In this document: in pieces, positions 5,896 through 25,539 of the stretch
How the letters are laid out: each line of letters begins with the position of its first letter
Position numbering within the stretch: the stretch's first letter is position 1
Source: Phormidium tenue FACHB-886
GTDB taxonomy: Bacteria > Cyanobacteriota > Cyanobacteriia > Elainellales > Elainellaceae
DNA: 64,000 nt
Direction: 5' to 3'
Assembly: GCF_014764505.1 (NCBI RefSeq)
Contig: NZ_JACXWX010000007.1
Location: forward strand, 1 to 64,000
Made by a program: the position numbers and the translations under genes
Notes under the pieces: generated by a model
Seen by the model: only the letters and a program-made list of their open reading frames with translations
What the model was told of the DNA's origin: nothing
The model's database searches: none

Positions 5896-6843
5896 ATGAC
5901 GATCGACTCTCCACTGCTGGATTTTAACGAATCAGCTTCTTCCCATTCCTATGTTCAAACTCAGCACCGTTTGAAAGAACTGCTCAACTATTACTTTTCC
6001 ACTGCCCATTTGAACGATCGCCTTCAGGATTTACCCCATCAGTTCCACCACCCCCAGCCTCGTCCCTGGAAACCGATTAACTGGCGGGCGATTGCGCTGG
6101 ATCAAATTGTCGGGATGCATCCTCAGGTGTTTTTAGCAATTTTGCAGGGGGCGATCGATACAGAAGCTCCGATTCGGGGTTACACCCAAACTAGCCGTCA
6201 ATATCTAGAGCCACTCGATCCGCGTATGGCACGTTTTGTGGGAGGAGTGGTTGGCGCAGATGGCAACCTGCTGGAACCGGGACTCTGGGAGAAAGAAGAA
6301 CGGCAACACACGCCAGCGTTGCTCAAAGTGTATACCCAACTCACTCAGCAAAAAGTGATCCCCCAATCCCATCCGGTTCGCCCTTACCACTCTTCGGCTG
6401 ATCCAGTAGGTGCGCTTTATCGTCATGGCTTGCATCGGGTTGCCACTGAATATGGTGCTGCCTGTCTCTACCTCTGGTTAATGGCACACACAACTGGACC
6501 TTTGCAAGCGCTGCTGGAAGAACTGGTATTGGATGAAATTAACCACATGGCAAAGTTTTGGGGGTTTGGCGTTTGGGCATACGCTGATTCATCACTTTCT
6601 CGCATTGGCTGGACTTTGCTACGAATGATGAAGGGACGCATGACTTACCAGCCCGATCGCAGCAGCCTTATCGGCACGCTCCACCGCATGACCACCGTAC
6701 TGAGATGGCAAACTTGGTCTGCCATCAATCGATGGACTTTTGCCTTTACCTGCATCCATGCTCTCCGGCTCCTAAACCGTTGGAACCAAAATCTCACCCC
6801 GGCATTTCTACAGGAGTTGTTGGGTGAATCTCCCTGTCATTGA
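5896..6843 (+). CDS. Ferritin-like di-iron protein (acyl-ACP desaturase-like), first gene of uppS unit
   Basis: A 315-residue mostly helical soluble protein with two ExxH motifs at residues 135-138 (EERQH) and 214-217 (DEINH). This is the spacing and form of di-iron carboxylate proteins such as the acyl-ACP desaturase/ferritin-like superfamily. The uncharged first half (residues 1-100) resembles nothing I can name. It starts 186 bp from the divergent STAND gene and ends 29 nt before the likely ATG of uppS, so the two are probably co-transcribed, which hints at a role in lipid or isoprenoid oxidation. Substrate and reaction are unknown. Start ATG 5896. Confidence 0.7.
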
Positions 6844-6872
6844 AGGAAATTTTTAATCGTAATATCGTAATT

Positions 6873-7658
6873 ATGACTTGTCGAAATTTTTCAACCTTAC
6901 CAGACGATCTCGACCCGCAACGGCTACCCTCCCATATTGCTGTCATCATGGATGGGAATGGACGCTGGGCAACCCGACGGGGGCTACCTCGCTTCGCCGG
7001 ACATCGCCAGGGAGCCAAAGCATTAAAGGAACTGTTGCGCTGCTGCAAAGATTGGGGAATTTCTACATTAACTGCCTATGCTTTTTCCACCGAGAACTGG
7101 CAGCGTCCCTTGCAGGAAGTTCATTTCCTGATGACTTTGTTTGAACAATTGCTCCAGCGCGAATTGGCAGAAATGCAGCAGGAAGGAGTCAAGATTTCCT
7201 TTATTGGCGATACATCAGTTCTTTCCCCGTCCCTACATCAGGAGATGCAGCGTGCCATGGAAGAAACTGCCTATAATGACGGAGTTCGTTTCAATGTCGC
7301 GATTAATTATGGCAGCCGTAACGAATTGGTCAATGCTTGTCGCCAACTAGCAGAACAAGTACAGCAGGGAACGCTACTTCCCTCAGAAATTGATGCTACA
7401 CGATTTGAGCAGCAGCTCTACACAGTAGGAAACCCTGACCCAGATTTGCTAATTCGCACCAGTGGCGAAATGCGTTTAAGTAACTATTTACTCTGGCAGA
7501 TGGCGTATACGGAATTGTATTTTACTGATGTTTTGTTTCCTAATTTCGATCGAGAGGCATTGTATAAAGCTCTGGTGCATTATCAGGGACGAGATCGCCG
7601 CTTCGGAAAAATCCCTCTTAAGGATTGTTCCAACCCTCTAGAATATGCAGTGTCTTAG
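6873..7658 (+). CDS. uppS: Isoprenyl transferase (undecaprenyl diphosphate synthase)
   Basis: Cis-prenyltransferase that condenses isopentenyl diphosphate onto an allylic diphosphate to make the long-chain carrier lipid for cell-wall and polysaccharide synthesis. The signature IMDGNGRWA gives the catalytic Asp27; the later [10 protein letters not shown] motif, the hydrophobic [11 protein letters not shown] stretch and the closing GRDRRFG are all family hallmarks. The frame is open upstream to a TTG at 6840 that overlaps the stop of the di-iron gene, but ATG 6873 gives the usual N-terminus just ahead of the first conserved strand. About 261 residues, normal length. Confidence 0.95.
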
Positions 7659-7849
7659 CTCGACTTTATCCAATTCAACAAACAAGTATTTCCCCCAACA
7701 TTCTCCATCCTGTTGGCAATAGACTTGCGCTCAACAATTAGAGACAACCAATGGCATTGCCAGACACCTAACCAGACGGTAGCACCACAGAGAGAATAAG
7801 TTTGGCAAGATGTGCGAAAGGTGGCTAATTAAATGGAAGACTCAAAAGC

Positions 7850-8016
7850 AACACTGATTCGCGAATAGAGTGAAGTTGATTATTGACGGCACTAATTTGC
7901 GAATCGAACTCTAAAGAGACTAGAACGATGCTAATTTGCGAATAGCGATATCCAATGCGCAAACACACCTCAATGGCAGTAGTTTGTCACCAATGACGTT
8001 AATTAGGTACTGTGCA
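7850..8016 (-). mobile_element. Remnant transposon end, Tn7/type V-K CAST-like, with repeated transposase-binding-like sites
   Basis: Read on the minus strand from 8016, the sequence begins TGCACAGT and then carries at least five same-orientation imperfect repeats: around 7991-8007, 7971-7990 (GTGACAAACTACTGCCATTG), 7930-7945, 7891-7906 and 7853-7868. The last three share the core ATTCGCAAATTAG and sit 38-39 bp apart. From memory, type V-K CAST ends start TGTACAGT and hold arrays of very similar TnsB sites, so I call this a degenerate end. It abuts a broken gene at 8006-8366. No transposase or second convincing end is present; TGTGCG at 7811 is a weak candidate. Confidence 0.5.
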
Positions 8017-8366
8017 GTATTTTAGTCAGTGTGCAGTATTTCTCCGATTTACCAATGTAAAGGGGAATGACTTGCTGACCGTTGCACCAAAACATCATGT
8101 AGATTAGTCCCTCATACTCGTCGGTGCCAGCTTGGAAGTCCCAAAGAACTTTGTTTACTTCCTGAACGACCAGAGATTCCATCAGGCGGGAGCGACAGAC
8201 GTACGTCTTTGAAGTTAGAGTGCCAGCTCCACTGACGCGACTGAATTGCTGAGCAGATTAAGTTCTGAAGTTGCTGGAGGGCGATCGCTGTCATTCCAAG
8301 GTTTGCAATATCTGGAGGAGAAAGCAGCCCTGTTGCAAATGCTACAATTCTGAAGGAATTAGTTAT
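8006..8366 (-). pseudogene. Broken gene fragment with a GIY-YIG-like motif
   Basis: Two overlapping minus-strand frames join into one protein. Frame one (open from 8366) reads ...FATGLLSPPDIANLG...LQQLQNLICSAIQ; a frameshift near 8240 moves to frame two, ...SGAGTLTSKTYVCRSRLMES...GLIYMMFW...PLYIGKSEKY. The spacing of LIY and YIGKS resembles the GIY-YIG nuclease core, but I cannot name the family with certainty. Protein-like sequence stops at 'SEKY' (about 8036), next to the transposon-like end, after which only about 11 unrelated residues precede a stop. It therefore has no proper start, one frameshift and a truncated 3' end. Confidence 0.55.
8011..8041. repeat. Direct repeat TGTGCAGTATTT, two copies at the transposon/gene junction
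   Basis: Identical 12-mers lie at 8011-8022 and 8030-8041, 19 bp apart. The inner copy contains the presumed transposon terminus; the outer copy falls where the coding similarity of the broken gene ends. A target-site duplication for this class would be about 5 bp, so the 12-bp identity is either an extended junction duplication or a slippage product. Confidence 0.6.
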
Positions 8367-8382
8367 TTATTGACGTCGTACA

Positions 8383-8787
8383 TTGAACCAGAAACGCTCA
8401 AAATCTTTGTTGTTAGCCCTACTAAATTCCTTAGCTGATTTCGATGGGGAGCTATCTGAAGAAGCTGTAGGGCTATTGGAGGAGTTGAAAACCCGATCGC
8501 ACATTATTGCTCCTCTGTATGCCGATGTATTTGCCCTGCCTCATTCCGCAACCTGTGCGGATTTGGTCGATCGCATTACCTCTCTTTCCCAGGAGCAGGT
8601 GGCGATCGCTAGCTATGCGTTCCAAATTTTTCGCTATTATGAGCAGATTTTGAGAGCAAACCCAAGTGATGCATCGCTACAACAGAAGGCAGCTTATGAA
8701 TCTCAGGTGGAGCGAGTTCGACTTTCAGTAGACCGAACGAGAGCTGTTTTGGCAGAGTCTATGGGAGAAAAGCCAGATATGAAATAG
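8383..8787 (+). CDS. Small hypothetical protein
   Basis: A 134-residue acidic helical protein that I do not recognise. The only start available is TTG at 8383, because an in-frame stop lies just upstream at 8371 and no ATG occurs near the beginning; there is no clear ribosome binding site. Residues 20-60 (DGELSEEAVGLLEELK) and 80-134 look amphipathic and possibly coiled-coil. It lies between a broken gene and a tRNA in a scarred segment, so it may be the remaining part of a longer protein. Composition looks coding, but function is unknown. Confidence 0.45.
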   Translation: MNQKRSKSLLLALLNSLADFDGELSEEAVGLLEELKTRSHIIAPLYADVFALPHSATCADLVDRITSLSQEQVAIASYAFQIFRYYEQILRANPSDASLQQKAAYESQVERVRLSVDRTRAVLAESMGEKPDMK

Positions 8788-8821: not shown

Positions 8822-9070
8822 TTACAGCCTAGAAGTCCGAGCGATCTTATCAAGCCAGTCTTGAGCAATGAGCTGGATGGTGGTGAGTGGCTCGTTGTAA
8901 GGATATCTTGTGGGGTGCTCTAGCCGTTCTCTATTATTAGAGCCTTCTTTAAAGGGGATTTGAAGTTTGTTGAAGAGCGACCGCGCTCCTTCAAGATCCC
9001 CAACTTTGTTATATGCCAGAATCTTCCAACCTTCTGCTGTAAGTACAGAAACTAACGAAGCTGGTGACAA
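8822..9070 (-). CDS. Possible small protein or gene remnant beside tRNA-Thr
   Basis: An 82-codon frame whose nominal start lies inside the 3' end of tRNA-Thr (9060-9131, same strand), with stop at 8822. The interior (ILAYNKVGDLEGARSLFNKL) reads like a TPR-type helix pair. Because the start overlaps the tRNA, it could be a remnant of a gene cut by integration at the tRNA 3' end, or spurious. I could not find a better internal start. Confidence 0.25.
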   Translation of the reverse strand: MSPASLVSVLTAEGWKILAYNKVGDLEGARSLFNKLQIPFKEGSNNRERLEHPTRYPYNEPLTTIQLIAQDWLDKIARTSRL

Positions 9071-9131
9071 GACTCGAACTTGCGACCGGCTGATTACAAA
9101 TCAGCTGCTCTACCAACTGAGCTACACCAGC
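9060..9131 (-). tRNA. tRNA-Thr (anticodon UGU)
   Basis: The minus strand folds into a standard cloverleaf of 72 nt: acceptor GCTGGTG / CACCAGC, D-arm GCTCAGTTGGTAGAGC, anticodon stem GCTGA / TCAGC with loop TTTGTAA, and T-arm containing GTTCGAGTC. The anticodon TGT reads threonine ACA. CCA is not encoded. Confidence 0.95.
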
Positions 9132-10603: not shown

Positions 10604-11452
10604 TTATCCTGCCGATCGCACTAGCAGCACCGGGCAGTTGGCATATACGCGCACATAATCCGAGAGGGATTGTCCTAAAAGGCGATCGAGGTCGGGAAGT
10701 CCTTTGGCGATCGAGGGACGGCGATCGGGAGAGCCGAGGATGAGCAGGTCTACATTCAGGTCTTCGGCAATTTGGCAGATTCGCTCGCCTGGTTTGCCTT
10801 CGGGCGCAATGCACTTGTAGTTAATTCCCCATTTTTTGGCTTCGTTGATTGCCGGAATCAGCACTGGATCTTCGTTGGGATTGGCAGCAATTTCACCGGG
10901 CTTCAGCTTTAGATCGGGATTGGTATGAACGAGAATGAGCTGGCTGTTTTTTAGATCGCGCAGCAGCCGGACCGCCAAATTGAGGGACTGTTGCGCCGAA
11001 GGAGATTTATCCATCGCCACCATGACCCGATTAATTTTGCGGACGTTGATATCGTCTTTGACTAGCAGCATCGGGCGGGAGGCGAGCTGAAACACATACT
11101 GACTGACCGAGTTCTCCAAAATCGATTGGATGCGCTTCAGCCCCCGCGATCCCATGATGATGAGATCGGTGTCTATTTCTTCAGCAACGCGGCACACAAT
11201 GTCTTTGGGATCGCCTTCCCGCAGCACAGCGGTGACTTGGCTAGGGTTGAGGCTTAGCTTTTGAATGGCGCTTGCCAATATTTTGCCGCCTTCTTCCCAC
11301 TTTGCCGTCATGCCGTCTGCAGTGACTTGGGGCGGCACAACGTGGAGGACGGTTACATTAGCCCGTTGAATCAAAGGGACTTCCATCAGCACTTTCAGCA
11401 TTTCTTCGGTGTGTCCAGTGCCGGAATTCGCAAGCAAAATTTTTTCTATCAT
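10604..11452 (-). CDS. Tandem-domain universal stress protein (UspA family)
   Basis: Two UspA domains in one chain of about 282 residues. The first (1-140) ends with LIIMGSRGLKRIQSILENSVSQYV and the second with LLILGSPDRRP...LGQSLSDYV; each carries a version of the GxxG(x9)G(S/T) nucleotide-binding signature, degenerate in the second. Family members are cytosolic stress-responsive proteins, some ATP-binding. I chose ATG 11452 because AGGAG sits six bases upstream; a TTG at 11479 would add an atypical nine residues. Transcribed on its own, divergent from the P450. Confidence 0.88.
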   Translation of the reverse strand: MIEKILLANSGTGHTEEMLKVLMEVPLIQRANVTVLHVVPPQVTADGMTAKWEEGGKILASAIQKLSLNPSQVTAVLREGDPKDIVCRVAEEIDTDLIIMGSRGLKRIQSILENSVSQYVFQLASRPMLLVKDDINVRKINRVMVAMDKSPSAQQSLNLAVRLLRDLKNSQLILVHTNPDLKLKPGEIAANPNEDPVLIPAINEAKKWGINYKCIAPEGKPGERICQIAEDLNVDLLILGSPDRRPSIAKGLPDLDRLLGQSLSDYVRVYANCPVLLVRSAG

Positions 11453-24694: not shown

Positions 24695-25390
24695 TCACGA
24701 GCTTTGTTCGCTTGCTGTGCCAAACCGATAGCCTTTTCCGTACACCGTGTGGATTAGAATAGATTCGCCTTCTGCTTCAATCTTGCGTCGGAGTAGACGA
24801 ATTTGAGCAGCCAAAACATTACTACTGGGTTTTTCGCCTTCGTTCCAGAGATGAGCGTATATTTGCTCATGGGTCAGCAGTTGGTTGGGGTGCTGCATTA
24901 AATAAGCCAAAAGCTGGCTCTCTTTTTCAGAAAGCTCGATTAGGCGACCTTGGCGAGAAGCGAGCTGGCTCTCCAGATTTAACTCCAGCCCCTCTACAGA
25001 TAATCGCTGTGGAGCAGCAGGTTCCAGCGTTGGTGGACGGCGAAGGAGCGCCCGCACCCGTGCCAGCAGCTCTCGCAGCTCGAACGGCTTAATTAGATAA
25101 TCATCCGCGCCTGCGTCCAAGCCATCCACCCGATCGTCTAGCGTATCTTTTGCGGTTAAGAACAAAACGGGAGTGGTGTCCCCCTGCGATCGCAAATCTT
25201 GGCAAATCTCCAGTCCGGTTTTGTGTGGCAGCATCCAGTCCAGAATTAGCAGATCGTATTGTTTTTGGTCGGCAAGCTGCTTGCCTTGAAGCCCATTATG
25301 CGCGATATCCACCTCATATCCCTGCCGCTGTAGAATGCGGCTCAGGGGTTCGGTCAGTTCGGCTTCATCATCCACCAATAGGATCTGCAT
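24695..25390 (-). CDS. OmpR/PhoB-type response regulator (RppA-like)
   Basis: A 231-residue regulator. The receiver has D7/D8, phospho-Asp51 (LLILDWMLPHKTG), the conserved T and K (FLTAKD ... LIKPFE). The winged-helix domain spans about 125-225 (LSEKESQLLAYLMQHPNQLLTHEQIYAHLW ... TVYGKGYRF in pieces). Overall form matches cyanobacterial RppA/NrsR-type regulators, which respond to redox or metals, but this is family-level inference. No kinase is adjacent; the kinase at 54085-55518 is a conceivable partner elsewhere in the window. Confidence 0.88.
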   Translation of the reverse strand: MQILLVDDEAELTEPLSRILQRQGYEVDIAHNGLQGKQLADQKQYDLLILDWMLPHKTGLEICQDLRSQGDTTPVLFLTAKDTLDDRVDGLDAGADDYLIKPFELRELLARVRALLRRPPTLEPAAPQRLSVEGLELNLESQLASRQGRLIELSEKESQLLAYLMQHPNQLLTHEQIYAHLWNEGEKPSSNVLAAQIRLLRRKIEAEGESILIHTVYGKGYRFGTASEQSS

Positions 25391-25539
25391 CAGCTAGGCT
25401 CAAAGAGTTGCCGGAATAGGACTGGCACAGCCGCAGACAACGTTTGTGCTGCCTTCTAGATTATCATCGGTCAGTGTTTCAGGGGCTGCGGGAGGGTTAT
25501 GATAACGGTGCAGGCAAAGGGATACAGTTGGCGATTGCT

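Follow-up and report, generated by a model that had tools for sequence, protein, structure and literature searches.

The stretch of DNA analysed here, referred to as the window, comprises the first 64 kb of a contig (C223) in the 8.93 Mb genome of the cyanobacterium Phormidium tenue FACHB-886. Undecaprenyl diphosphate synthase (uppS; 6840-7658, plus strand; Pfam PF01255, E 4.8e-87) is an intact host gene that borders a series of transposon remnants. The first of these is CTTAGCTCGACTTTATCCAATT (7653-7678, plus strand), a short multicopy sequence that has several 100% matches of 19-23 bases in genomes of the family, occurs in one relative (L036) as two inverted copies some 180 bp apart, and probably marks the end of an insertion sequence or MITE. 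It is followed by a degraded fragment of an IS1-family transposase gene (7681-7818, plus strand), with 70-78% DNA identity to seven loci of relatives (L021-L024, L026, L046, and L047), among which the gene at L023:1225-1725 matches PF03400 (DDE_Tnp_IS1, E 1.7e-9). The hexamer TGTGCG at 7811, which the initial annotation had proposed as a weak partner end, is present as letters and is accounted for by the transposase DNA in which it sits.

Beyond this fragment, judging from sequence comparison, 7847-8016 represents the worn outer tips of at least two different type V-K (Cas12k) CASTs, nested and with their bodies gone. On the far side lie the N-terminal part of a truncated gene (8036-8194, minus strand), a conserved ORF of 134 aa (8383-8787, plus strand) and a tRNA-Thr (TGT) gene (9059-9131, minus strand; ARAGORN) that points at the ends. 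The 134-aa ORF has matches in 18 of the 36 family genomes, own included, and no Pfam match; in one relative (G026) it lies near a CAST end, and in another (G022) a broken cas12k is a few kb away.

A whole type V-K CAST consists of cas12k, tnsB, tnsC, and tniQ between two ends. The window holds no such element: neither TnsB (Mu-transpos_C) nor TniQ has a match at E<=0.001 on its contig, Cas12k has none there at E<=1e-10, no opposite CAST end was found in the window, and no CAST body is recognisable between the ends and uppS. This agrees with a solo end or deletion derivative, as first suggested, and leaves the short non-autonomous element with two ends, which had been offered beside it, unsupported. 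The remnant is unable to move by itself now. Its kind, a V-K CAST left end, is already known, while the nested arrangement is unusual. According to PMC11406308, V-K CASTs are native only to cyanobacteria, and in the naming given in PMC9938897 the left end is the one beside the tRNA and the CRISPR array.

Left-end remnants of two subtypes

A search of 36 genomes of the family (own included) with 7640-8120 found matches to 7917-7973 in two relatives, G011 and G003. In G011 (contig C134) a CRISPR array, a truncated repeat and a short spacer directly precede the match, and a GTACA tip lies just outside it. In G003 (contig C67) the match is flanked by CRISPR-like repeats and a tRNA-Thr (TGT) gene and is downstream of a Cas12k gene (NF038191, E 5.4e-256), on a contig that also encodes TnsB (Mu-transpos_C, E 1.9e-13), a short TniQ-like protein (23.9 bits, under the Pfam cut-off of 27) and, between these two, an ORF that is TnsC-like by position only. 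Recurrence of the repeats next to tnsB, tnsC, tniQ, or cas12k had been named as supporting evidence, and in G003 the homologous end does share one contig with cas12k, TnsB, the TniQ-like protein and the ORF that is TnsC-like by position. Among the matching CAST left ends, L050 carries a CRISPR array and guide. Matching Cas12k open frames of 750-873 aa are present in several relatives, and Cas12k is found in 35 of the 386 genomes of a phylum sample that includes the present one (E<=1e-60).

For comparison, 43-base left-end tips, 15 gathered by pattern and one (L051) by hand, were split by eye into a GCGAA type (ten tips, one of them GTGAA) and a GTCAC/GTTAC type (six tips); the window is in neither set. 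The end closer to uppS (7847-7969, minus strand) is assigned to the left (CRISPR/guide side) end of a V-K CAST of GCGAA subtype by its register, PWM score and nhmmer match. The PWM, from which the window was left out, gives 25.7 bits at 7927-7969. This value is above the maxima of 20 random sequences of 128 kb (-9.7 +/- 3.5, highest -1.7) and below that of true GCGAA members left out one at a time (53.9-72.6 bits), and therefore the copy is real but worn. The GCGAA profile, run with nhmmer against the whole window, gives E 1.4e-6 at 7931-7961. Alignment with the ends of relatives places the TnsB-like sites at starts 7847, 7885, 7924, and 7945, which corresponds to -122, -84, -45 and, by alignment, -24 relative to the tip at 7969, as compared with -133, -95, -45, and -24 in G003 and -132, -94, -45, and -24 in G011. 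The window and the ends of G003, G011, and G025 share a common register, with approximately 10 bp less between sites 2 and 3 in the window. The inner tip itself (7964-7969) is worn to CACACC, where relatives have TGTACA (most of them) or AGTACA. The core ATTCGCAAATTAG, for which three copies had been counted on the minus strand, recurs at spacings of 38 and 39; two copies are exact (7931-7943 and 7892-7904), but the third (7854-7866) has two changes.

A host regulatory array of repeats, or repeats arisen by chance, would agree with the shortness of single sites and with the modest score of the outer tip (described below) when taken alone; the inner end, however, stands far above the 20 random sequences and keeps a register common to CAST left ends over about 120 bp, which leaves such an origin with a negligible probability. 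The initial assignment to a Tn7-like, type V-K CAST end is borne out by subtype PWM, nhmmer and the register common with the left ends of relatives.

In CASTs, the truncated CRISPR repeat (R*) sits inside the innermost TnsB site. At 7832-7848 (plus strand), 13 of 17 positions agree with the copy in G003, a post hoc comparison in which 32 of 2000 shuffles equal this value, and the stretch is possibly a worn remnant of R*. No anchor spacer is seen there, just inside the inner end.

The inner tip is separated from the first outer site by TCAAT (7970-7974). Tn7-like transposons generate a 5-bp target-site duplication, and TCAAT would be the expected duplicate, that is, the interior of the outer element. 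Its counterpart is TCCAT in a GTCAC-type end (L104) and TGAGC in L134.

The stretch 7975-8016 (minus strand) contains what appear to be the last two TnsB-like sites and the TGTGCA of a second V-K CAST left end, of GTCAC subtype and in the same orientation. With the GTCAC profile, nhmmer gives E 8.6e-4 window-wide (7977-8015) and E 1.2e-6 when only 7970-8060 is searched. The stretch is one base shorter than the profile and the match needs a one-base gap; the ungapped GTCAC matrix scores -8.0 bits at 7975, below chance places elsewhere, and when the two subtypes are combined in one model the E values are 2.9e-4 and 0.48, the latter for the outer tip. The gapped profile, together with a place right at the inner tip, makes a modest window-wide case for this end. 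The sequence TGCACAGT, read on the minus strand from 8016, and the same-orientation repeats behind it are present as first described, but they do not make up one array of five repeats; they divide into the GCGAA-type end with its tip at 7969 and the GTCAC-type tip at 7975-8016.

Proceeding outwards, 7975-8016 is followed by GTATT, by TTAGTCAGTGTGCA (8022-8035, minus strand) and by GTATT again. TTAGTCAGTGTGCA is a third tip-like sequence, identical to the canonical tip TTAGTCACTGTACA at 12 of 14 positions (5 of 20000 shuffles of 8017-8060 are as good), and its TGTGCA (8030-8035) lies at the break of the neighbouring gene. It may be the scar of a still older end or one half of a 19-bp tandem duplication together with 8003-8021. 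In the latter case there would be two tips only, the 14-mer having arisen by duplication of the outer tip and five flanking bases, which is compatible with the explanation preferred below. TTAGGTACTGTGCAGTATT and TTAGTCAGTGTGCAGTATT are 84% alike in tandem, and GTATT and a derived TGTGCA occur in both. However, short extra tips of 5-8 bases adjoin some CAST left ends in the present data, and at TTAGTCA the outer copy is nearer to the canonical tip than the middle copy. On balance, the duplication is slightly favoured. Another match to the tip (11 of 14) at 9055 on the minus strand is the wrong way round and was set aside; the window contains three matches of at least 11 of 14.

The layout resembles that of V-K CAST left ends (the ShCAST, AcCAST, and AnCAST group) in the overlapping terminal TnsB-like pair, the spaced inner sites and the position of the tip, a likeness established by comparison with CASTs of the same family. 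It differs in that both terminal hexamers are worn (CACACC at the inner end and TGTGCA at the outer), in that the tRNA gene is 1 kb off instead of next door, and in that the search of the window turned up none of the other CAST parts (CRISPR array, anchor guide, cas12k, tnsB, tniQ, and opposite end). Tn7-like elements that lack CRISPR also bear TnsB-site arrays at their ends, but the matches found for the window are ends of Cas12k-bearing elements. A solo V-K left end in G026 (L134) likewise lies on a stretch without Cas12k, in a genome without a Cas12k match at E<=1e-10. In contrast to the window, it consists of one end only, abuts tRNA-Val and keeps remnants resembling a CRISPR repeat and an anchor guide. 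The anchor-guide-like spacer of this locus (L134:10640-10964) resembles the adjacent tRNA-Val.

Stacked left-end tips at other loci

Tips of different subtype also occur in tandem, and in the same orientation, beside tRNA genes. On contig C199 of the same genome, next to tRNA-Cys, a GCGAA-like tip (E 5.8e-4 in 15 kb) is followed by a GTCAC-like tip (E 3.2e-4) and, by eye, by a third short tip, with two separate GTACA tips in a row. A stretch of another genome (G125, L107) has sites of three kinds in a row before tRNA-Lys, seen by eye and matched by the profiles too. When one genome per species was scanned for GCGAA tips with GTCACTGTACA 8-38 bases further on, a single record was retrieved, that of Symplocastrum torsivum CPER-KK1 (L150), which reads GCGAACGTACA, AAATAATTAGTCACTGTACA, GTACA and then tRNA-Val (TAC). 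Its sequence probably reflects the insertion of a GCGAA end into a GTCAC end that was already there, which would give the two subtypes of the window in the same order. It could also be one altered end: over the whole 42 bases the GTCAC profile gives E 1.1e-6, as against 5e-4 for the GCGAA profile, and one GCGAA site is left. The tRNA-side stacks (C199, G125, and probably Symplocastrum) differ from that of the window, which abuts a broken protein gene. Moreover, C199 and G125 carry a Cas12k gene, whereas none is found in the window or in 8 kb of the Symplocastrum locus.

The frequency of such stacks can be estimated from 26 left ends with an annotated tRNA (L095, L109, L086, L089, L060, L050, and L051 have no annotated tRNA and are excluded). 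A GTACA tip is present in 19 of them, the outermost lying 2-36 bases from the tRNA, and is absent from the other seven. At least two GTACA tips within 40 bases of the tRNA occur in four of the 26 (L097, L107, L087, and L092), and L091 is a possible fifth stack, by eye. In the portions of the literature covered by the search (PMC11406308, PMC9938897, PMC8649781, and PMC10293859 among it), no description of stacked V-K left-end scars was found; a preprint by Hsieh and Peters on tRNA attachment sites, which is cited in that literature, may describe tandem elements.

These loci bear on whether the window holds two ends or a single chimeric one, in which recombination would have combined inner sites from one subtype with a tip from a second, leaving 8016 (or 8035) as the only working tip. 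The two types do abut in the same orientation with five bases between them, and the Symplocastrum end is likewise readable as one, the GTCAC profile spanning the whole of it. However, the inner type is complete to the terminal site and the tip position at 7964-7969, which a chimera would not need, and C199 has two separate GTACA tips in a row. A chimeric end appears improbable.

The broken gene and the proposed succession of insertions

The protein encoded from 8194 down to 8036 has 46-48% identity to plasmid proteins of Halobacterium hubeiense and Salinigranum marinum and a weaker match to a protein of Deinococcus peraridilitoris. The homologues comprise 228, 248, and 168 aa, respectively, and run on past the break for 124, 147, and 78 aa, which supports a break of the gene where similarity stops, at SEKY. 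The break is within a codon or two of 8036 and adjoins the outermost tip. As regards the nature of the gene, a GIY-YIG-like motif is present, as first reported, but no Pfam domain is found in the fragment or in two full-length homologues, and the label is based on the motif. A search of the phylum sample (386 genomes) with the fragment gave no match at E<=0.001 besides the window.

Two tblastn alignments of the broken gene cross two stops into the CAST end by way of the letters FAHW of a CAST site. When only the remaining parts of those two homologues are used, 463 of 500 and 313 of 500 shuffles are as good. The remaining part of the Salinigranum protein has one short match at 7807-7839 (equalled by 7 of 500 shuffles), which overlaps the IS1 fragment, and a weak piece at 7842-7798 (tblastn E 3.6). 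The candidate missing half inside the CAST end was taken as chance, as was a 39-base match in one relative (G022, L031) that would have made the broken gene a peptidase fragment. Relatives yielded no empty site; in G029, which retains uppS and the 134-aa ORF, roughly 9 kb separate the two, and the site is not clean.

Upon insertion of a type V-K CAST, the left end comes to lie 46-82 nt from the PAM, usually in a tRNA gene pointing at the left end. The nearest tRNA gene in the window, tRNA-Thr (TGT), has the expected orientation, but it is a protein gene that adjoins the ends, and the distance from the tRNA to the outermost tip is 1.02 kb instead of the 2-36 bases noted above. The same tRNA adjoins four of the ten GCGAA-type ends (L052, L100, L105, and L106), and three of the ten have no annotated tRNA. 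Adjacent deletion or a later insertion might link the proximity of tRNA-Thr with the broken gene. In the former case, replicative intramolecular transposition would have joined the tip to the gene and deleted the intervening DNA, so that the gene would not be the original site. V-K CASTs are without TnsA and transpose replicatively, as stated in PMC11406308; a search of the genome with the Salinigranum protein at E<=10 recovered the known fragment and no other half of the gene; and a tRNA that neighbours four of the ten GCGAA-type ends is 1 kb away. No direct trace of this route is seen, though, and the data are explained just as well by a simple insertion whose body was later deleted; adjacent deletion is rated as rather unlikely.

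The explanation preferred here, with a probability of about 0.78, is that of successive V-K CAST insertions, in which a CAST inserted into the left end of another and both bodies were then lost. First, a CAST of GTCAC type would have inserted in or beside the gene with the GIY-YIG-like motif, with its left tip at 8016 or, should the 14-mer be the tip of that CAST, at 8035. Later, a CAST of GCGAA type would have inserted about 47 bp inside the older left end, and the older tip would thereby have been left as a scar between the inner tip (7969) and the gene. Both bodies would then have been lost, with insertion-sequence remnants now adjoining uppS. The far ends of both elements are absent, and no anchor guide, PAM or protospacer remains in the window. 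The sequence itself shows two types of left end, how they are ordered and oriented, and the break in the gene, with no detectable CAST body in the window; the involvement of guide RNAs, the succession of events and the losses of DNA are inferred.

Possible repeat insertion, and CASTs elsewhere in the genome

As described in PMC11406308, the sequence recognised by the guide stays outside the CAST after insertion, so that the next CAST to insert at much the same distance will enter the end already present or settle next to it. Repeat insertion is normally prevented by target immunity, which V-K CASTs seem to possess (PMC11406308). The typeable stacks (the window, C199, G125, and probably Symplocastrum) all mix end subtypes, in four cases of which one is ambiguous. 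A tentative reading, given somewhat less than even odds, is that stacked tips are a fossil record of repeated V-K CAST insertion at one spot, with target immunity acting within subtypes and not between them. If immunity is limited in this manner, a resident CAST would not protect its site from unrelated CASTs. Should the 14-mer at 8022-8035 represent a third element, it would be of the same subtype as its neighbour, which would count against subtype-limited immunity. If the reading is correct, none of the elements behind the stack in the window survives, and the stack alone is left. V-K CASTs serve as tools for genome writing, and little is known of how repeat insertion at a given site is avoided or permitted. 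Nested tips of different subtype would provide natural evidence on this matter that survives loss of the elements and is countable across genomes. The window also shows that a solo CAST end is recognisable and typeable from about 120 bases.

When the same genome was searched with a 401-bp query for further copies of the end, the query retrieved nothing but itself (E<=0.001). Resident elements were also considered as a source: the stretches fetched from contigs C68, C249, C190, C124, and C211 are without such an array, apart from an AT-rich chance cluster (L019), and the CAST of C68 was discarded on account of its GTTAAC-type sites. Model R1, applied at E<=0.5 to the own genome, retrieved C227, the window and C199 among the 150 of 2547 candidates that were scored.

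On C199 (L092:5954-8485 and 10800-11176), the left end has GTGCCATTAATTTGCGAAT-like sites in addition to the stacked older tips at tRNA-Cys, and the same stretch encodes a Cas12k-like protein of 843 aa, as compared with 641 aa in G003. On C227, a stretch of 199 bp (25331-25529; L147:1501-1699) beside an amidase-like ORF has V-K-type ends in inverted orientation, TGTACAGTGCCAAATTAAATGACAT ... GATGACACTAATTTGGCATCAGGACAAATAAAAATTTACTGTACA; no 5-bp duplicate is seen at it, and by eye it resembles a MITE-like mini-CAST. C68 (L014, L015, and L084) carries a Cas12k gene and a left end at tRNA-Val (CAC), with two tnsB-like genes separated by approximately 3.3 kb and a tRNA-Gln as a further tRNA towards the far side, and possibly contains two CASTs side by side.
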